Positions 2,827-10,114 of a DNA stretch of 10,114 bases are shown one piece after another. The position numbers were made by a program, and so were the translations under genes. Each line of letters starts with the position of its first letter. Within the stretch, counting starts at the first letter, position 1. Under the pieces are notes generated by a model. It saw only the letters and a program-made list of their open reading frames with translations. It was not told the origin of the DNA and searched no databases. The DNA is taken from assembly GCA_040755715.1 (NCBI GenBank), contig JBFLXN010000099.1:1-10114 (forward strand), in the 5' to 3' direction. Source of the stretch: JBFLXN01 sp040755715 [NCBI: Candidatus Edwardsbacteria bacterium] (GTDB lineage: Bacteria > Edwardsbacteria > AC1 > JBFLXN01).

Positions 2827-2857
2827 TCGTATAGGAATTTTTCAAATTCCTATACGA
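2827..2857 (-). terminator. 14-bp stem-loop overlapping the operon's last stop codon
   Basis: A perfect 14-bp inverted repeat (TCGTATAGGAATTT at 2827-2840, partner at 2844-2857, loop TTC) straddles the TAG stop of the GH116 gene (2850-2852). Its position suggests a transcript-end or mRNA-stabilising structure for the five-gene operon. On the minus strand it is followed by CAAAAATAAAG rather than a U-run, so it is not a textbook intrinsic terminator. Its core is the 17-base repeat also found at 2369-2385. It may therefore be a mobile hairpin taken over as a transcript end. Confidence 0.45.
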
Positions 2858-5411
2858 TAAACTTAACCTGAATTGCTTTTCCTTCTACAAGATGGACAAG
2901 GTGTTCAAGTTTTATATACAGCCAAAAAGCATTTTTGACAAACCTTGCTTTTATGCGTCCTTTTGGCTCTTCAACCATTACAGTTTTAGGTTCTCTTTTT
3001 GTAAAGAACCGAAGTGTTTTAATCTCAACTTTACCATAGGCCACTTTAATAGTATCTATTTGCTCGTTTTCATTTATGTTTTGGGAAAAAGTGCCCCATC
3101 CATCTTTTGTGATAAAAAAACACCTGAAATTTTCCGGGTTAAGTTTTGGTGCAAATCCGATAAGTCCGTCTAATACATTATAACAGTAACCGCTCAAAGC
3201 TTCAAGCAAACCCCAACTTGACATTGCTCTAACATAATGGTCGCCACACTCTATTTCGTTCCATGGGTTTCTTCTTCTTCCATCATATCTGCTTCGGGCA
3301 GCAAAAACAATAGAAAGCCCCTCATCAACCAATCCCTCCTGAATCATTAGAGTTGCAACTGCATACTCAATTCCAGTCCATATTTCGTCACTATATAGGG
3401 TTGGAGTCTCAGGTCTTCCACCTCTTGGCCAGCTACATATGATAAGACCTGGTTCATCCTCGCAGGCAAATTGTCTCGGTTTTTGCTTAAAGCCAACAAA
3501 ATTCTTTCTGAAATTGTATCTGTAGATTGATTTGAGCGCCTCTCTCACATGTTCTTTCGGAAGTATATAGCCAAGGTCGAGTTGATTTGCCCACCACTGA
3601 CCTAAAAGTTGATCCAAGTGGCATCCATTTCCGTACTGATCTTTTACATATTTATTAGCATCGTATCTTTGAATATAGTATTCGCCATTCCACAGTTCCT
3701 TATCTATTATATCTCTTCCTGATTCAAACCTCTCTTTATACTCATTTGCCAGAGAATATTCGCCCTGAAGTTTTGCCATCTCCTCAGTCGCCCTTAGTGC
3801 TGCTAAATATAGACCTGAGACAAATGAGTTTTTACCATATAAGTTGCAGTCGTAAGTGTTCCACTGTGGACCATCAAAAACACCATCGCAATTCGAATCC
3901 CATCTTCTTTGAGCGTATGCCATTGCAAGCTTAATCTTTAGCCATACCTTATCCAAAAGAGCCTTACCACCAGCCTGCCTACATTCTCTATAAGTTTTAA
4001 GTATAGTGCCACAATGACCATCGGCTGCGTAAACCTCGGAGTCTTGAGCATCACTACTCCACCTCGGTAAGTGAAATGGCAATACTGTTCGATGCGGTAT
4101 AGCGCCATCCTCGCTCATATTTATATTTAGGTCTACATCACGCATTGTACGTTCTAAATCAGGAAATAGTTTTGAAAGAGACTGCTCATAATTCCACACA
4201 TGTGTACAGTTCAGAGGACAACAACCACCAAGTTTATTCTCAGTACTTGCACCACAGCAACCCTCAAACCCAAATATATTTCCATCTTTTGTCCACATAA
4301 TTGTAGGGCTTCGTATTGTGGAAATATTAGAACTTATACAATCTAAAACTTCATAGGGAAGTATGCTATCATAGAAAACTTGCCTGAAGAGCTCTGTTAA
4401 CTCATTAAGTCTTTTATATTTTCTTTTTACATACGTCCCTACATCAAGAGAACTTTTAAACCAGTTACTATACATATTGCCCAAAAAGAACTTATCATCA
4501 GATACACCAAAGTATTTTTGGCTCCAATTAACATACCTATTTGGGAAATACCAAGAAATAATAAAGATAACATTTGCTAGCTCAGATGGTGCAATCTCTT
4601 TCTTCACAGCAATTGCACCATTCCAAGTACGACCTTTCTCACTCGGTATAGAACTATTTATATTGGGTAAAGTGCCTTCTTTGATGAAATATTCCCAAAC
4701 TGTGTTTAAGTCATCCCATTGTGTGAGATAGAATGAAGTTTTGTCAAGTGCACCGAGTGTCATACTTCCCTCTCCTCCATTTCGCATATTTATTCCTGTG
4801 AACCCTTTTAACCTGACGATTTTATTAAAATTTCCGCCGTAGAGAGGACACTCAACACCGCAAATCTCAGATTTACCATCCCAACCAACCGCATTCTGTA
4901 AGCTTGCCAAAATCGAAAAACTTACATGTTTATTACTTTTAACAATAAAATTAAACACAATAGCAGGCAGCGCAGAATCCTTTGAGTCTAAAGGCACAAA
5001 TGGTGAGAATGCCTTTAAAGTTATTTCTATAGGAAGTTCATCATCTTTATATCTCACTTCGGCAATAGGATATTCACCTACAAATTCAATCTCTTTAATT
5101 CCCGGCAGTAATTTAAGCAGCTTTTTTGATTCTTCTGGGATAATATGGTCGGTAACAAGTGGGGCAGGTGAGAATTTTGTGTTATCATACATGGCATCGG
5201 ATTGGAGTAATTTTGCAACTGAGAAATCACCACTTTTTGTCCATACAGCGAAAAAGCTCATTGGGATATGTGCTATATGATTTGGAAGATTAACAATCTG
5301 CCATTGACGAAGTCCACCATCTCCTGCGATGGAAACCTGCCCTGCACCAATACCACCCATAGGCATTGCAAGTGCTCTAAGTGCCTGGTTTGTATATGGT
5401 CTTCTATCCAT
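2850..5411 (-). CDS. GH116/DUF608-family glycoside hydrolase (beta-glucosidase/glucosylceramidase-like)
   Basis: This 853-residue protein has the layout of the GBA2 (non-lysosomal glucosylceramidase)/GH116 family. An N-terminal beta-domain runs to about residue 340 (starting PMGGIGAGQVSI, with the WYFPNRY motif at 287-293). An (alpha/alpha)6 catalytic DUF608 domain covers about residues 355-745. The GFEGC motif puts a candidate nucleophile at E383, and NTYD puts the candidate acid/base at D521. Both are aligned by motif to known GH116 enzymes, not measured. Other family motifs are NCTHVWNYEQ (401-410), GTILKTYRE (468-476), DEIWTGIEYA (675-684) and MSSWGLLEALSG (730-741). A cysteine cluster (385, 386, 397, 398, 402) lies beside the nucleophile. 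About 110 extra C-terminal residues follow the catalytic domain. There is no signal peptide, so it is probably cytoplasmic. Its ATG shares one base with the isomerase stop (TAATG) and it has only a distant GGAG, so translational coupling is likely. Known members cleave beta-glucosides, beta-xylosides or N-acetylglucosaminides. The substrate here is unknown. Confidence 0.9.
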   Translation of the reverse strand: MDRRPYTNQALRALAMPMGGIGAGQVSIAGDGGLRQWQIVNLPNHIAHIPMSFFAVWTKSGDFSVAKLLQSDAMYDNTKFSPAPLVTDHIIPEESKKLLKLLPGIKEIEFVGEYPIAEVRYKDDELPIEITLKAFSPFVPLDSKDSALPAIVFNFIVKSNKHVSFSILASLQNAVGWDGKSEICGVECPLYGGNFNKIVRLKGFTGINMRNGGEGSMTLGALDKTSFYLTQWDDLNTVWEYFIKEGTLPNINSSIPSEKGRTWNGAIAVKKEIAPSELANVIFIISWYFPNRYVNWSQKYFGVSDDKFFLGNMYSNWFKSSLDVGTYVKRKYKRLNELTELFRQVFYDSILPYEVLDCISSNISTIRSPTIMWTKDGNIFGFEGCCGASTENKLGGCCPLNCTHVWNYEQSLSKLFPDLERTMRDVDLNINMSEDGAIPHRTVLPFHLPRWSSDAQDSEVYAADGHCGTILKTYRECRQAGGKALLDKVWLKIKLAMAYAQRRWDSNCDGVFDGPQWNTYDCNLYGKNSFVSGLYLAALRATEEMAKLQGEYSLANEYKERFESGRDIIDKELWNGEYYIQRYDANKYVKDQYGNGCHLDQLLGQWWANQLDLGYILPKEHVREALKSIYRYNFRKNFVGFKQKPRQFACEDEPGLIICSWPRGGRPETPTLYSDEIWTGIEYAVATLMIQEGLVDEGLSIVFAARSRYDGRRRNPWNEIECGDHYVRAMSSWGLLEALSGYCYNVLDGLIGFAPKLNPENFRCFFITKDGWGTFSQNINENEQIDTIKVAYGKVEIKTLRFFTKREPKTVMVEEPKGRIKARFVKNAFWLYIKLEHLVHLVEGKAIQVKFIV

Positions 5412-6382
5412 TAAAAGATTACACTCCGAATTATCTTTTGTGTCTTAATAGCATCCATACTCTTTTGGGCATTAACTAACTTCTCAACATCAATTTTATC
5501 GCATATTTTCCACATTGCTTTAATATTATCTATTGCCATCTGTGCTGACTCAACAGGGTCTTCACGATACGGATACATATCTAATGCAAACCAGCCATCA
5601 TATTCTATAAGTCGACAATAATACAGAAATTCTAATGTTTCCCAAAAATGAATTACACCAGGAATCATGTCGTCATCCCATTCACGATAGCAGTCATTAA
5701 AATGAATATTAAATAATTTCTTGTGTCTAGCAAGTATTGCAACAGATTCACCTGGATTTTCCTTAGCCATTAATGAGTGACCAAAGTCAATTGTTACACC
5801 TAAATTATCCATGTTGAGCTCAAGCACTATTGCAAGTGCCTTACCTACTGTCCCTATAGCTATATGGGTGCGCGGCTCCTTAAGTTTATACTCTATACCC
5901 ACTTTTATATCTGGAGAAGCATATTCTGCAACCTCTCTTATTGCTGAGAGTAGACTATCCCACTGTGAGCGATAATCTACCTGGAATGGATAATCAAACC
6001 CGTCCGAACCTAACCAAAGCCCAATGCTTGGGCAACCTATCTCTCTTGCAATATCTACTGCACGCTTACCCTCGGAGATTGCCTCTTTACGAAGATTTTT
6101 GTTTAAACTGCTAAATGCCCCTAATTTCCATTTGCTTGCCCCCCAAACATTGAGATTAATATTAGAGCATGTAAGACCAGCGTTTTTAAGGAGCTCGGTA
6201 AATTTCTTGGTAGTTATTGTATCAAAGTCGGTCTGATGGCATTCTACTCCTTTAAGCCCATGCACTCTTCCGGCTTTTTCTATTATCTCCTCTACCGATA
6301 GGAGATCTGAATACCCTTTTGGGCAAAATCGATCAACTGCTCCGCCAAAAACCCATAAACCAGCAGAAAATTTTAGTTCCAT
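5411..6382 (-). CDS. TIM-barrel sugar isomerase (L-rhamnose/xylose isomerase-like)
   Basis: This protein of 323 residues belongs to the xylose-isomerase-like TIM-barrel (AP endonuclease 2) superfamily. Candidate metal ligands are E164 (GIEYK), D199 (TIDFGHS), H227 (NIHFND) and D268 (ALDMYP). H202 and the DDD at 236-238 could form a second metal site. The spacing E-35-D and D-3-H, with the acidic pair after the HFND histidine, resembles the Pseudomonas stutzeri type of L-rhamnose isomerase. An aldose-ketose isomerisation is therefore more likely than DNA repair. Epimerase activity cannot be excluded. I chose the ATG at 6382 over one 20 codons upstream because AAGGAGGA lies 4 bases before it, and because the longer form would extend far into the preceding gene. 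The stop of the upstream gene (TAA) is 1 base before this ATG, and its own stop overlaps the GH116 start. Confidence 0.88.
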   Translation of the reverse strand: MELKFSAGLWVFGGAVDRFCPKGYSDLLSVEEIIEKAGRVHGLKGVECHQTDFDTITTKKFTELLKNAGLTCSNINLNVWGASKWKLGAFSSLNKNLRKEAISEGKRAVDIAREIGCPSIGLWLGSDGFDYPFQVDYRSQWDSLLSAIREVAEYASPDIKVGIEYKLKEPRTHIAIGTVGKALAIVLELNMDNLGVTIDFGHSLMAKENPGESVAILARHKKLFNIHFNDCYREWDDDMIPGVIHFWETLEFLYYCRLIEYDGWFALDMYPYREDPVESAQMAIDNIKAMWKICDKIDVEKLVNAQKSMDAIKTQKIIRSVIF

Positions 6383-6383
6383 C

Positions 6384-7529
6384 TTATCCTCCTTTCTGTT
6401 TTTGCCAATGCTTTTTGGCAATTTTATGTGTTCTCTCTGCAAAAGCAGAAATTCTTTTTTCCTCTATACCAACAACATCGGTTTCTAATAAGTCATTAAG
6501 GCAGGTAGACCACTTTTTAGGAATTTTTTCTGCCCCAAGAATGGTCCCCATTATAGAACCTACTGTAGCACCATTACAATCTGTATCCCAGCCTCCCATA
6601 ACAGTAATGCAGATTGCTCTTTCGAAATTACCACCACTATGAAGAAGCCCCATAGCGATGATAGTAGCATTGTTTATTGTATGCACTGGATTGTACCAGC
6701 CATATTTTTTATTAATTTTAGCATAAGTTTTTTCCCAGTCAGAATTCTTTTTGCTCTCCTCCACTACCAGATGAATAGCCTTACTTAACTTGCAATCTCT
6801 TGGTATCTCTGTTAAACCGAGTTGGATAATATCATCTATCCGGGAAGTGGTAAAACTAGCTGAGATCATTGCCGCCACCCACATTTCCCCATAAATCCCG
6901 TTTTTTATATGGGAAAGAGAAGCATCCCTATAAGCAAACCCTGCGGCTGCCTCTAGAAGCCCAGGGGAGACATATCCCCATATGTCAGCTCTAATTTGGG
7001 CACCTATCCACTCCTTATAAGGATTTTTATAAGTAGCAGTTTTAGGCGGTTCAATACCATTGACTAAATTTTTATAAGCTATTCTTTCTGCGGTGTAAAC
7101 ACTAAGAAATGGTAGATGGGCTAGCCACTGAGAACCAACATCGTTTGTAGTAAAGTTTAGTCCCACTTCTTCCAATATATGCAATCCGAGAATTGTATAG
7201 TCAATATCGTCATCGCGAACCATACTGTTAATATTCCCTAAAAGTGTCCTATTTTCCTTGTTAAATTTTTTGTATTCATTTTTGTGATGAGAAAGGTAAG
7301 GAAAATAGTTTGAAAGTGGATATGCGTCGGCGAATCTCAAGAAGCTCTCTATTTTCCCCTTTTCCCATCCTTCCACAGGTTTACCTAAAAGGCAACCAAT
7401 ACAACGACCTAACCACGCACCATAAATCTTATTATATAGCTCTTTATCCGATAATTTAATTTTTATTCTACGAGGCCCTTCTAGTCTCGCCGCTTTTATC
7501 TCTTCTAAATTGGAAGGTTCGGTATGCAT
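6384..7529 (-). CDS. ADP-ribosylglycohydrolase (DraG/ARH) family protein
   Basis: This all-alpha protein of 381 residues carries the two metal-binding signatures of the family. These are RDDDIDYT at 105-112 near the start (after IYGAWLGRCIGCLLGKPVEG, 35-54) and GGWDTDCNGATVGS at 312-325 near the end. Both acidic clusters are intact, so a binuclear-metal hydrolase is expected. Characterised relatives remove ADP-ribose from arginine, dinitrogenase reductase or other acceptors. Here the gene sits between a ribokinase and a sugar isomerase, in an operon of glycosidases. Cleavage of a ribosyl-like or other furanosyl glycosidic bond in a small molecule is therefore at least as plausible as protein de-ADP-ribosylation (inference). 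I placed the start at 7529 because GAGGTGG lies 5 bases upstream. The longer 402-residue form would overlap ribokinase by 44 bp. About 25 residues before the core domain are not typical and their role is unclear. Confidence 0.88.
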   Translation of the reverse strand: MHTEPSNLEEIKAARLEGPRRIKIKLSDKELYNKIYGAWLGRCIGCLLGKPVEGWEKGKIESFLRFADAYPLSNYFPYLSHHKNEYKKFNKENRTLLGNINSMVRDDDIDYTILGLHILEEVGLNFTTNDVGSQWLAHLPFLSVYTAERIAYKNLVNGIEPPKTATYKNPYKEWIGAQIRADIWGYVSPGLLEAAAGFAYRDASLSHIKNGIYGEMWVAAMISASFTTSRIDDIIQLGLTEIPRDCKLSKAIHLVVEESKKNSDWEKTYAKINKKYGWYNPVHTINNATIIAMGLLHSGGNFERAICITVMGGWDTDCNGATVGSIMGTILGAEKIPKKWSTCLNDLLETDVVGIEEKRISAFAERTHKIAKKHWQKQKGG

Positions 7530-7548
7530 ATTTCCACCTCTAAATATT

Positions 7549-8481
7549 CTAACTGCACTTTTTGCCAGATTCCATAAACTCAACAACTTCATTAAAAGTT
7601 GGTAGCGATGGCTGTGCCCCCATTCTCGTTACTGAGAGGGCTGCGGTAAAGTTTGCAAATCTTACTGCATCTGAAAGATTATCATTTCTCGCTAATGCAA
7701 AAGCAAGTGCACCATTAAATGCATCACCAGCAGCTGTTGTATCAACTGGCTTAACCTTTGGTGGATGTATAAGTTCGCTTCCTACTTTGTTAACAATTAG
7801 TGTTCCACTACCACCCATAGTCACAACTACATTTTCAACACCCTTATCTATAAGGGCATATGCAGATTCTTTTGCTGTGTGCTCATCTTTTACATCTATA
7901 CCAGATAGGATTGACACTTCGTGCTCATTTGGTGTTAGAACATGAATCTGACTTAAAAAAGCAGGCTCTATCTCTTTTGCCGGAGCGGGATTGAGTATGA
8001 TTAGCTTATCGTATTTTTTAGCCAATTCTATCGCAGAATACACAGCAGACAATGGTATCTCTAACTGAACTAAAAGGACATAGCAATTCTTTATTACCTC
8101 TTCTGCTTGGTATACATCATACGGAGAAAGTTTACTATTTGAGCCGGGTGCCACAACAATCTGGTTTTCACCATTAGAATCAACGAAAATTAGTGCTACT
8201 CCAGAATGAGCCTCATTCTCCCTCACAATAAATCTGACATCAATCCCCTCGTTTATTAGGTTTGATATAGACTCCTCACCAAAGCTGTCCTTACCTATTC
8301 TTGCTACAAAGCTCACATCACCTCCTAATCTTGCAATTGCAACCGCTTGATTAGCACCCTTACCACCAGCGGCAATGAAAAAATCACTCCCAAGCAATGT
8401 CTCACCAGGCATTGGAAGACGAGGTACCTTAATAACCATATCAGTATTTGAACTGCCAACTACAACAATCTTTGCACTCAT
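7549..8481 (-). CDS. rbsK: Ribokinase (PfkB family)
   Basis: This enzyme of 310 residues, the usual length for ribokinase, phosphorylates D-ribose (or a related furanose) with ATP to give the 5-phosphate. The N-terminal signature GSSNTDMVIKVPRLPMPGET (9-28) includes the sugar-binding D14. AAGGKGANQAVAIARLG (37-53) is the sugar-binding lid and PfkB signature 1. E141 and NPAPA (164-168) follow, then TPNEHE (183-188). DTTAAGDAFNGALA (247-260) holds the anion hole and the catalytic base D253. All are intact. The start is fixed by a 4-nt ATGA overlap with the stop of the upstream DUF2961 gene and an AGGTGAT upstream. PfkB kinases shift substrate easily, so D-arabinose, tagatose or fructose are possible alternatives. 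There is no ribose ABC transporter or RbsD nearby, which differs from the classical rbs operon. Confidence 0.93.
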   Translation of the reverse strand: MSAKIVVVGSSNTDMVIKVPRLPMPGETLLGSDFFIAAGGKGANQAVAIARLGGDVSFVARIGKDSFGEESISNLINEGIDVRFIVRENEAHSGVALIFVDSNGENQIVVAPGSNSKLSPYDVYQAEEVIKNCYVLLVQLEIPLSAVYSAIELAKKYDKLIILNPAPAKEIEPAFLSQIHVLTPNEHEVSILSGIDVKDEHTAKESAYALIDKGVENVVVTMGGSGTLIVNKVGSELIHPPKVKPVDTTAAGDAFNGALAFALARNDNLSDAVRFANFTAALSVTRMGAQPSLPTFNEVVEFMESGKKCS

Positions 8482-9539
8482 AGATTATCACCTATAGGGA
8501 GCCTCTGTTCAACAGGAGGCATAGGGGGAAACTTTTTATGTGGTTCACTCTGATACCAGTAAGCTGTACTACTATAGTCATCCGAGCGTCGATTGGCATG
8601 ACCATGTTCAATAGTCACTAATATAGACTTCTTGAAAACAATCGGGTCTTCAATGTGAAACCTGTACCAAGAGACTTTGCCTGACCAGTTTTGCCCACTA
8701 CCTAAAGTTATACCATGATATGGAGCATAAAATTCTTCCTGTGGACTCCAAGCACAGTTAAAATAGTCCTCAGTGCCTGTGCCATGGAATGACGGCGGAA
8801 ATAACTCACCATCCACAAAAATCATGTCATCGCCTTCACCATACCAATTTTCAACATCAGGTGGGACATTCCTCAGATTATGGATATTTAAGACGCAACC
8901 AACATAGTGACCTTCACCTTCTCCATCGAGAATTATATAATTACCTTCGCCAGTTAGATTCCTGCCACCGAAAAGGAAATCGTCATTGGTCATCCCAGCC
9001 TCGGATATGCCTTTACAGCGTTCCCTTCGCCATTGGGCATGGAACCGTAGATGGTCAGTTGGCAGTGAATTGTATACTTCGTAATCGAGATAATAATAGA
9101 ATAAGACCTCATTTTTTTCGCACTCACTTTCAATCTCAACTTTGGCTTCCTTCGCAAACGGCATAGGAAAATAACAAGAAAAGCCCCTACCATCCCTTGG
9201 GCTCATACATAAAGGTAGTGAAGCAAAGTTTTTTGTAATACCATGCCCAATTCCAAAAAAATCACCAAGAGGAACCTCGACGCTCGGCTCCCTTTCACCA
9301 TCCCAAAACATTCTAAGAATGATTTTCCTTAAGAACAGCTCCTCTTTTGAACTAACGGTGCACCAAAAGTGAGTGATACAGCCAGCACCTTTTATATTAG
9401 CTAATGTTGCCTTTGATTTAGGTGCGATGTGTAACCTATCGTCATTGCCACCAGTTCTATCCCAGCTCGACTCCCTTTTGGTCTTACATTCGCGCCTGAT
9501 TACCAGTCCCCTTAAAGGACTAAAGAGTAGAGTAGGCAT
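8478..9539 (-). CDS. DUF2961 / GH172-type glycoside hydrolase
   Basis: This 353-residue protein shows the DUF2961 hallmarks in order: SSWDRTGGNDD (25-35), GAGCITHFW (51-59), PLGDFFGIGHG (90-100), WYGEGDDMIFVDGE (232-245), GTGTEDYFNCAW (253-264) and W-containing strands near the end. DUF2961 proteins founded family GH172, whose characterised members act on alpha-D-fructofuranosyl (difructose dianhydride I) or D-arabinofuranosyl linkages. E235 (GEGDD) and E257 (GTGTED) are the likely catalytic pair by motif comparison. There is no signal peptide. It is the first gene of the operon and overlaps ribokinase by 4 nt, so its product sugar may be the kinase substrate (inference). The ATG at 9539 is preferred because AGGAGG ends 6 bases upstream. 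A TTG at 9545 would touch the ribosome binding site. Confidence 0.9.
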   Translation of the reverse strand: MPTLLFSPLRGLVIRRECKTKRESSWDRTGGNDDRLHIAPKSKATLANIKGAGCITHFWCTVSSKEELFLRKIILRMFWDGEREPSVEVPLGDFFGIGHGITKNFASLPLCMSPRDGRGFSCYFPMPFAKEAKVEIESECEKNEVLFYYYLDYEVYNSLPTDHLRFHAQWRRERCKGISEAGMTNDDFLFGGRNLTGEGNYIILDGEGEGHYVGCVLNIHNLRNVPPDVENWYGEGDDMIFVDGELFPPSFHGTGTEDYFNCAWSPQEEFYAPYHGITLGSGQNWSGKVSWYRFHIEDPIVFKKSILVTIEHGHANRRSDDYSSTAYWYQSEPHKKFPPMPPVEQRLPIGDNL

Positions 9540-9545
9540 ATTCAA

Positions 9546-9554
9546 CCTCCTCCT
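9546..9554 (-). promoter_or_regulatory. Strong ribosome binding site of the operon's first gene
   Basis: AGGAGGAGG on the minus strand ends 6 bases before the ATG at 9539. This spacing decides against the in-frame TTG at 9545, which abuts the site. Confidence 0.8.
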
Positions 9555-9573
9555 AGTTTAAAATGGTAGTGTG

Positions 9574-9695
9574 AAAAATCTCCGACTTTTTTCTCTCAAG
9601 AGGAGACCTTTTTGTATATATTCTGACAGGTCTTGTTCCCGGTCCTCCGTTGACAAGTCGTCAGTTGCCACCGGAGACTAGGAGTGTGTCGGAGA
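9574..9695 (-). promoter_or_regulatory. Structured mRNA leader element upstream of the operon
   Basis: In the minus-strand transcript, UCUCCGAC (9695-9688) pairs perfectly with GUCGGAGA (9586-9579), and the closing arm is followed at once by UUUUU (9578-9574). Inside this closing stem are a bulged stem GUCUCCG (9678-9672) with CGGAGGAC (9649-9642), capped by UGAC/GUCA (9663-9660 and 9654-9651), and a second hairpin AGACCU (9633-9628) with AGGUCU (9609-9604). The arrangement of a closing stem, two internal hairpins and a U-run looks like a cis-regulatory leader, either a riboswitch-like element or an attenuator. It matches no class that I recognise. Folding was done by eye only. An alternative GUUC/GAAC pairing competes with the closing stem. 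Confidence 0.45.
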
Positions 9696-9721
9696 ACCCA
9701 CTAAATACGCCTTAAATTCCA

Positions 9722-9740
9722 TCCTGAACTTATTTCAGAA
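9722..9740. repeat. REP-like palindrome TCCTGAA-N5-TTCAGAA
   Basis: This is an imperfect copy of the CCTGAA-N5-TTCAGG element seen at 2003-2021 and 2683-2701, with the same 5-nt loop length. It lies within the predicted leader of the five-gene operon. Confidence 0.65.
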
Positions 9741-9795
9741 TCTTGACCTCCGACGCATAGATTTCCAAGCCATAATTTTTTTGACACTTTTGTTT

Positions 9796-9809
9796 ATTTG
9801 AATTCAAAT
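9796..9809. promoter_or_regulatory. 14-bp perfect palindrome just downstream of the promoter, candidate operator
   Basis: ATTTGAATTCAAAT is a perfect palindrome lying about 14-27 bases downstream of the transcription start predicted from the consensus promoter. This is a usual place for a repressor site, but no regulator gene is present in the window and the site is AT-rich. The call is tentative. Confidence 0.35.
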
Positions 9810-9829
9810 TCTAATGTGTTTTTTCTATT

Positions 9830-9878: not shown

Positions 9879-9936
9879 ATTTAAAATTCAAAAGTGAACT
9901 CTTTTTAGCGAATTTAAAGTTCAAAAGTGAACTCTT
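9879..9936 (+). repeat. Two 25-bp direct repeats at the IS end
   Basis: ATTTAAA(A/G)TTCAAAAGTGAACTCTT occurs at 9879-9903 and 9912-9936, a 33-bp period of about three helical turns, with one mismatch. They end just before the transposase promoter and probably bind the transposase. Confidence 0.85.
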
Positions 9937-9975: not shown

Positions 9976-10114
9976 ATGGCAAAACAGTTACACAAAAGGT
10001 TTACGGATTCCCAGGTCAAAGATCTTATTGAACGCTATCTGAAAGAAGAAATTGAAAGAAAGTATATCCAAGAAATTCTGAGTATTAAAAAACGCCGATT
10101 TTTTATTCTGGTTA
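9976..10114 (+). CDS. Transposase N-terminal fragment (truncated by window edge)
   Basis: The frame opens with ATG at 9976, 8 bases after a strong AGGAGGG (9961-9967), and runs to the right edge without a stop, giving 46 codons. The product begins MAKQLHKRFTDSQVKDLIER and continues with a basic helical segment (EILSIKKRRFFILV) suited to DNA binding. The wording and the upstream direct repeats resemble N-termini of DDE/integrase-core transposases of IS481- or ISNCY-like elements. This assignment is from memory of such proteins, and the catalytic domain is not in view. It is divergent from the operon. Confidence 0.6.
   Translation, partial: MAKQLHKRFTDSQVKDLIERYLKEEIERKYIQEILSIKKRRFFILV

Follow-up and report, generated by a model that had tools for sequence, protein, structure and literature searches.

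The five-gene operon

We analyzed a window of 10,114 nt from a Candidatus Edwardsbacteria genome (contig JBFLXN010000099.1), within which every coordinate of the operon and its surroundings is counted. The window carries five intact minus-strand open reading frames (ORFs) that appear, on balance, to encode the cytoplasmic half of a pathway for D-arabinofuranosides, that is, for D-arabinan oligosaccharides. D-Arabinose is the mirror image of plant arabinose and occurs in mycobacterial cell walls. From 5′ to 3′, the genes encode a GH172 (DUF2961) protein that is a predicted exo-α-D-arabinofuranosidase (8478–9539, 353 aa), the PfkB-family ribokinase RbsK (7549–8481, 310 aa), an ADP-ribosylglycohydrolase-family (ARH) protein whose subfamily carries DDD and DTD metal motifs (6384–7529, 381 aa), a xylose-isomerase-like TIM-barrel sugar isomerase (5411–6382, 323 aa) and a GH116 protein of ExoMA2 type (subfamily 4) that is a predicted exo-β-D-arabinofuranosidase (2850–5411, 853 aa). 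In that order, the junctions are −4, +19, +1 and −1 nt, where the +19 junction assumes that the ARH gene starts at ATG 7529; a longer ORF from 7592 would overlap the RbsK gene. Shine-Dalgarno-like sites lie upstream of the genes for GH172 (AGGAGGAGG), the TIM-barrel protein (AAGGAGG) and ARH (GAGGTGG). The Pfam E-values are 6.5e-89 for DUF2961/GH172, 5.9e-73 for PfkB, 2.9e-51 for ADP_ribosyl_GH and 8.3e-24 for AP_endonuc_2 (the TIM-barrel protein), and the GH116 protein matches both Glyco_hydr_116N (7.2e-54) and DUF608 (1.4e-53).

A sigma-70-type consensus promoter on the minus strand (TTGACA-17-TATAAT, 9858–9830) sits about 290 nt upstream of the GH172 gene, and its −10 element is extended by a preceding TG. 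It is the sole 12-of-12 match among 34 promoter-like sites; shuffled sequence yields 26.3 sites (standard deviation 4.7) at the looser threshold for promoter-like sites. The 5′ leader that follows on the same strand (about 285 nt, 9540–9824) is moderately structured, folds better than shuffled sequences (z = −2.33) and could be regulatory. An Rfam scan returned nothing at the gathering score and two chance-level matches below it, and assigned the leader to no Rfam family. At the other end of the operon, a minus-strand hairpin with a 14-bp stem (2857–2827, −18.4 kcal/mol, z = −5.6 against shuffles) overlaps the GH116 stop codon. This hairpin has no U-run and was not listed by a terminator scan of the window; consequently, it is not a canonical intrinsic terminator. 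An original prediction, made from the DNA alone, had named these five families (now also matched by Pfam), the minus-strand genes with their four junctions, the strong promoter and the terminal hairpin, and all of them were borne out. None of the five proteins begins with an obvious signal peptide when read by eye, and the pathway is therefore probably cytoplasmic.

The GH116 protein as a predicted β-D-arabinofuranosidase

The closest solved relative of the GH116 protein is ExoMA2 (PDB 8ic6; 392 bits, E = 4.4e-116), as compared with 135 bits for its best β-glucosidase match (7dkw). As described in the part of PMC10509167 drawn on here, ExoMA2 has the nucleophile E431 and the acid/base D557, together with H446 and R483, which are specific for arabinofuranose (Araf) and stand where the β-glucosidase TxGH116 has Asp452 and His507; the enzyme is specific for β-D-Araf and showed no activity on p-nitrophenyl (pNP)-β-glucoside. 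In our alignment, the GH116 protein of the window keeps the equivalents of all four residues, with His and Arg at the positions of TxGH116 Asp452 and His507. The alignment has 36 rows, some of them overlapping copies of one gene fetched twice. All four residues are kept in every ExoMA2-type row, bar one that ends before E431, and none of the four distant GH116 paralogues used as controls (L174–L177) has both H446 and R483. From these residues and scores, the window protein is predicted to be an exo-β-D-arabinofuranosidase of ExoMA2 type (GH116 subfamily 4).

The original prediction had the GH116 enzyme acting on β-glucosides or β-xylosides, which the 392 against 135 bits and the conserved Araf residues do not bear out. 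A glucoside or xyloside operon with a GH116 β-glucosidase would draw on the fold and the Pfam families that are common to GH116 β-glucosidases, but the same scores and the His and Arg at the two TxGH116 positions make it highly improbable. The correction from glucosidase to arabinofuranosidase matters for automatic annotation; one plasmid-borne relative of the GH116 protein is annotated as a non-lysosomal glucosylceramidase.

The GH172 protein and its clade

Among solved structures, the GH172 protein is related to 4kq7 (285 bits), αFFase1 (7v1v, 272 bits), DgGH172c (8ah3, 262 bits) and ExoMA1 (8ic8, 133 bits). The catalytic and −1 subsite residues of αFFase1 (Y187, W267, E270, E291, D292 and W298, with E270, E291 and D292 the catalytic ones) are all kept. 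Gly299 of αFFase1, which makes room for the hydroxymethyl group of fructose according to the part of PMC8605356 used here, is a Ser in the window protein. Across the 100 rows of the alignment, this position is C in 36, G in 29, D in 14, N in 12, Y in 5 and S in 4. It is Asn in ExoMA1, as given in PMC10509167, and Cys in DgGH172c, which is active on pNP-α-D-Araf as reported in PMC10115798.

A tree of the 100 rows places the window protein in a 22-row clade with support of 100/97, apart from αFFase1, DgGH172c and ExoMA1; the rows of αFFase1 and ExoMA1 have long branches and unsure placement. The other 21 rows of the clade carry Cys (19) or Ser (2), and never Gly, at the Gly299 position. A GH183 gene lies near GH172 in 8 of the 21 other clade loci and in 0 of 65 loci outside the clade (Fisher p = 3.8e-6), although the search used a single GH183 protein, from L015, as its query and may have missed weak relatives. 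Either GH183 or a pair of genes for a SIS-domain protein and an RbsK-like kinase is found near 12 of the 21, as compared with 0 of 65 (Fisher p = 1.9e-9). In two loci outside the clade (L023 and L025), a more distant PfkB kinase and a different SIS-type protein lie some kilobases off, which we did not count as a pair; counting both gives 2 of 65 and p = 1.4e-7. Contigs that are cut short were counted both inside and outside the clade. By gene context, the clade of the window GH172 is a D-arabinan clade.

These data bear on a fructoside pathway, in which the GH172 enzyme would act, like αFFase1, on α-D-fructofuranosides or difructose dianhydrides. In favor of it, αFFase1 is a close solved relative that outscores ExoMA1 and, in the portion of PMC8605356 consulted, acts on both sugars. 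Against it, a Cys at the Gly299 position is argued in the same portion to clash with fructose in BACUNI_00161, a clash that we extend, by inference, to Ser. The window protein also falls outside the tree group of αFFase1, though the placement of that long-branched row is unsure, and the operon's kinase scores as a ribokinase and not as a fructokinase. Lys147 of αFFase1, which is needed for inulobiose (PMC8605356, same portion), has no counterpart in the window, but the stretch it falls in is gapped in each of the 99 other rows, and little can be read from its absence. Overall, we consider the fructoside pathway very unlikely, and fructofuranosyl bonds, one of the GH172 targets in the original prediction, are an unlikely substrate. 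Judged by residues, scores and clade, the GH172 and GH116 proteins of the operon are likely both D-arabinofuranosidases.

The isomerase and the kinase

The best PDB relative of the TIM-barrel protein is 3ktc (216 bits), labelled a xylose isomerase by its depositors, followed by xylose isomerases and L-rhamnose isomerase. Its scores fall below the NCBIfam equivalog cut-offs both for L-rhamnose isomerase (97.6 against 531 bits) and for xylose isomerase (94.7 against 447 bits), and by these scores we classify it as a superfamily member only. Aligned with xylose isomerase, it keeps a Glu, a Lys, a His and two Asp that we take to be metal-binding or catalytic residues, while one Glu is replaced by Asp and one Asp by His, presumably the pattern of L-rhamnose isomerase. 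RbsK passes the ribokinase models TIGR02152 (372 bits, cut-off 299.65) and PRK11142 (342.4 bits, cut-off 341), and scores 233 bits against ribokinase 1gqt. The SIS-domain protein and the RbsK-like kinase near GH172 occur in L001, L002, L005, L006 and L015, and their kinases form a clade of their own. In the SIS–RbsK clusters of Bacilli it seems likely that the kinase acts first, followed by a putative SIS-domain arabinose 5-phosphate isomerase, which would make a possible route for D-arabinose by way of arabinose 5-phosphate.

One Chloroflexota locus (L131, positions 4034–11660 of that locus) holds genes for an ATP-binding cassette (ABC) transporter, a nucleoside hydrolase, an ARH protein, an adenosine deaminase and a TIM-barrel relative (40% identical).

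The ARH protein

The ARH protein matches PF03747 with 175.3 bits (cut-off 26.2) and keeps the metal-binding Asp motifs DDD and G-W-DTD, though it lies far below the NCBIfam cut-offs for DraG (26 against 337 bits) and Tri1 (18 against 490 bits); it belongs to a subfamily unlike either. Its predicted structure, made from 3 sequences, has a mean predicted local distance difference test score of 41. A scan of plasmids for ARH relatives matched 35 records, and we opened six loci (the five first rows and H37). Five of the six have a PfkB-type match within 8 kb of the ARH gene, and one does not. The gene order is LacI-ARH-ABC-ribokinase in Mycolicibacterium and ABC-ARH-ribokinase-ARH in Deinococcus, while Nonomuraea has a gene for a sugar-binding protein with ARH genes and an adjacent ribokinase. 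Halostella has a nucleoside-type ABC set near the ARH gene (ORFs read by eye), and its PfkB match is only 25% identical. Two or three ARH genes share a locus in Deinococcus, Subdoligranulum and Nonomuraea.

Nine Chloroflexota loci with close ARH relatives were picked from the ARH matches of the joint query described below, and one of the nine has a kinase match nearby. The ARH gene of Cohnella JJ-181 (46% identical) is followed 1.7 kb downstream by RbsK, with a sporulation-family gene between them, and in two Oscillospiraceae loci (L023 and L025) the ARH gene comes directly after two GH172 genes. These contexts together indicate that ARH proteins accompany furanosidases and ribokinases, but unevenly. 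Scans of viral contigs with the ARH and GH116 proteins found no relative of either.

Known ARH proteins act on ADP-ribosyl bonds, and the one in this operon may be regulatory, stripping ADP-ribose from a protein and present in a sugar operon by chance. The kept DDD and DTD metal motifs agree with such a role. Set against it are the scores far under the DraG and Tri1 cut-offs, the relatives with sugar ABC transporters, LacI regulators and ribokinases around them, the several ARH genes per locus in the three genera named above and, in L023 and L025, the location next to a pair of GH172 genes; we regard a regulatory role as unlikely. ADP-ribosyl hydrolases grip the 2,3-diol of ribose through metal ions. 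Consequently, a ribofuranoside fits an ARH protein better than arabinose does, and we tentatively propose, at less than even confidence, that the ARH protein is a ribofuranosyl-cleaving furanosidase.

A broader and more speculative proposal is that the DDD-type ARH proteins are carbohydrate-catabolic furanosidases and not protein de-ADP-ribosylases; in this operon, ribofuranosyl cleavage would be added to D-arabinan breakdown, and both D-arabinose and ribose would reach RbsK through an isomerase that connects the three sugars D-arabinose, D-ribulose and D-ribose. A literature search, with most subscription journals outside it, found no description of an ARH protein in a D-arabinan pathway, and the term ADP-ribosyl is absent from the main text of PMC10509167 and of PMC10115798. 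Ribose-utilization loci of Bacteroides can carry ARH-family genes; a search for a paper on such loci found none.

If ribose were the center of the operon, the ARH protein, perhaps together with GH172 and GH116, would cleave ribofuranosides, RbsK would form ribose 5-phosphate, the TIM-barrel protein would handle ribose or ribulose, and D-arabinose would not be the main substrate. Several observations fit: RbsK clears both ribokinase cut-offs, ARH genes lie near RbsK or other PfkB kinases in the five plasmid loci, a Staphylococcus staphylococcal cassette chromosome (SCC) element holds an ARH protein, a purine permease and a ribokinase (PMC3321955, in the part drawn on here), a TIM-barrel relative stands in the nucleoside hydrolase operon of L131, and a Rhizobium plasmid has a row of genes for a TIM-barrel protein, a sugar ABC transporter, an RpiR-type regulator and a ribokinase. 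However, the clade and context of GH172 and the Araf residues of GH116 indicate D-arabinose, only one of the nine Chloroflexota loci with close ARH relatives has a kinase match nearby, and L131 has an ARH protein of a type other than the DDD type seen in the window. We therefore hold a ribose-centered operon to be rather unlikely.

Recurrence of the gene pairs in other genomes

The original prediction had named a lack of synteny in relatives as evidence against it, and the outcome lies halfway. We scanned 80 GH172 loci, several of which end at contig ends, for the other four families: 6 have an RbsK match, 2 an ARH match, 1 a TIM-barrel match (26%) and 0 a GH116 match. All five genes together were found in 0 of these 80 and in no other locus scanned, whereas pairs of the genes recur. 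A joint query with GH172, ARH and the TIM-barrel protein against 251 Chloroflexota genomes matched 76 of them, with at most three candidates per genome scored, and gave no three-gene cluster among the matches listed; in one of these genomes, ARH and GH172 lie on the same contig, 25 kb apart. In Cohnella JJ-181, a single contig carries GH172 and GH116 with about 18 kb between them.

At the level of whole genomes, GH116 was found in 21 of the 42 genomes selected for a related GH172, which stand for 42 of the 80 loci. We applied thresholds of 1e-20 and 1e-40, the stricter of which all 21 positives clear. We aligned the best GH116 matches of 20 of the 21, leaving out that of G025, and all are of ExoMA2 type. 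The background rate is 6 of 299 genomes in Bacillota and 0 of 246 in Actinomycetota, although a scan that matches nothing and includes no known positive shows little by itself. Within Bacillota, as assigned by record title, GH116 is present in 6 of 16 genomes chosen by GH172, against 6 of 299 (p = 4.8e-6); if the sampled phylum omits Clostridia, Bacilli and Erysipelotrichia alone give 4 of 10 (p = 1.1e-4).

Three archaeal metagenome-assembled genomes (G018, G020 and G022, with loci L018, L020 and L022) carry GH172 together with an ExoMA2-type GH116 that is 43–44% identical; their GH116 relatives are the highest-scoring found, and the related genome of L019 has no GH116 match.

The proposed pathway

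From the families, the operon structure, the active-site residues and the GH172 clade and context observed here, we infer the substrates, the isomerase and kinase steps, their order and the role of the ARH protein as follows. D-Arabinan oligosaccharides would be imported into the cell, where GH172 would trim their α-D-Araf ends and GH116 their β-D-Araf ends. The TIM-barrel enzyme would convert D-arabinose to D-ribulose, and possibly further to D-ribose, and RbsK would form the 5-phosphate that enters the pentose phosphate pathway. The ARH protein may provide a third furanosidase, which would depend on metal and cleave a cis-diol (ribofuranosyl) sugar from that oligosaccharide or from a riboside imported alongside it; the ribose freed from such a riboside would also be phosphorylated by RbsK. 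A GH183 endo-D-arabinanase and an oligosaccharide transporter may lie elsewhere in the genome. The probable cytoplasmic operon of the original prediction, which releases, isomerizes and phosphorylates furanosyl sugars, is supported; its premise that the substrate is necessarily a mixed glycoside is not.

Several observations weigh against a D-arabinan pathway. The GH172 protein is nearer to αFFase1 than to ExoMA1, the enzyme of the published pathway, which falls outside its clade, and Ser, a small residue at the Gly299 position, might leave room for fructose all the same. Because no ExoMA2-type row departs from H446 and R483, the two residues mark the subfamily, of which we know only one assayed member. 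RbsK scores as a true D-ribokinase, and the kinase tree neither resolves its position nor joins it to the GH172-linked kinases. GH172 directly adjoins GH116 once among the GH116 loci scanned (L186, at a contig end), and genome size and lifestyle may have inflated the enrichment of GH116. The 10,114-nt window, whose end lies about 140 nt inside the upstream gene, has no GH183, transporter or regulator gene.

The relatives of the TIM-barrel protein also have mixed neighbors, with ABC_tran the commonest (7 of 52 proteins, which come from 18 of the 25 TIM-barrel loci). The nearby same-strand ORFs, found mechanically, number 67, of which 15 were outside the 52-protein scan; five of these (L130 and L131) and one more (L154) were scanned separately, and nine were left unscanned. 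In L160 and L167 the ORF caller missed the TIM-barrel frame, so their neighbor lists are unsafe.

If the D-arabinan pathway is correct, the operon is an intracellular set for the exo-degradation of D-arabinan in a probably uncultured lineage, and it provides a further natural pair of exo-α- and exo-β-D-arabinofuranosidases as tools for mycobacterial-type glycans. It would also make a sugar role testable for a branch of the ADP-ribosylglycohydrolase superfamily in which several members have sugar transporters and ribokinases as neighbors.

Flanking sequence

Two 25-nt direct repeats, each with GTTCACTTTTGAA, occupy 9879–9936 without strand assignment, flanked by the operon promoter and a divergent gene; they are 96% alike, spaced 33 nt apart, and are possible operators between divergent promoters. 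The divergent plus-strand ORF begins within 9976–10114; its visible 46 aa have no significant Pfam match and give only the impression of the N-terminus of a DNA-binding or transposase protein. On the minus strand at 78–1838, a 586-aa protein combines FG-GAP repeats with UnbV_ASPIC and a sorting tail for type IX secretion, which suggests a lineage with a system like type IX secretion. Viral contigs scanned with the repeat and with the FG-GAP protein held no relative of either.

Comparison with known systems

GH172-SIS-RbsK clusters of Paenibacillus, Bacillus and Acholeplasmatales (L001, L002, L005, L006 and L015) resemble the operon in that a GH172 of the window's clade has an RbsK-like kinase nearby, and differ in having the SIS-domain protein, possibly an arabinose 5-phosphate isomerase, and no match to the TIM-barrel isomerase or ARH. 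ARH-ribokinase clusters (plasmid loci L081, L084 and L085, and the SCC element in the part of PMC3321955 consulted) share an ARH gene near a ribokinase and a transporter; they differ in that the stretches scanned have no GH172 or GH116 match. The αFFase1 of Bifidobacterium dentium shares its family and −1 subsite with the window GH172, while its fructose-admitting Gly299 is Ser in the window (PMC8605356, in part).

Among D-arabinan systems, the polysaccharide utilization locus PUL42 of Dysgonomonas gadei shares GH172 D-arabinofuranosidases, two of them active on pNP-α-D-Araf, and differs in its predicted fucose isomerase, according to the sections of PMC10115798 used here. The sections of PMC10509167 used here list a putative GH116 for the Dysgonomonas gadei cluster and a candidate set of GH183, GH172 and GH116 for Cellulomonas. 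They also describe the D-arabinan cluster of Microbacterium arabinogalactanolyticum, with two GH183, the GH172 ExoMA1, the GH116 ExoMA2, an ABC transporter, an isomerase and a kinase. Like that cluster, the operon combines an intracellular GH172 and an ExoMA2-type GH116 with an isomerase and a kinase, which is, by family, the gene content of a D-arabinan locus; unlike it, the window has no GH183 or transporter, has an ARH protein, and has a GH172 of a clade other than that of ExoMA1. The original prediction knew of no described pathway with this gene set, which is not supported: GH172, GH116, an isomerase and a kinase make up the intracellular half of the Microbacterium pathway (PMC10509167). 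Because the same gene set has been published for D-arabinan breakdown in Microbacterium, the core of GH172, GH116, isomerase and kinase is of a known kind, and the parts that differ are the ARH protein, the barrel resembling xylose and rhamnose isomerases, and RbsK.

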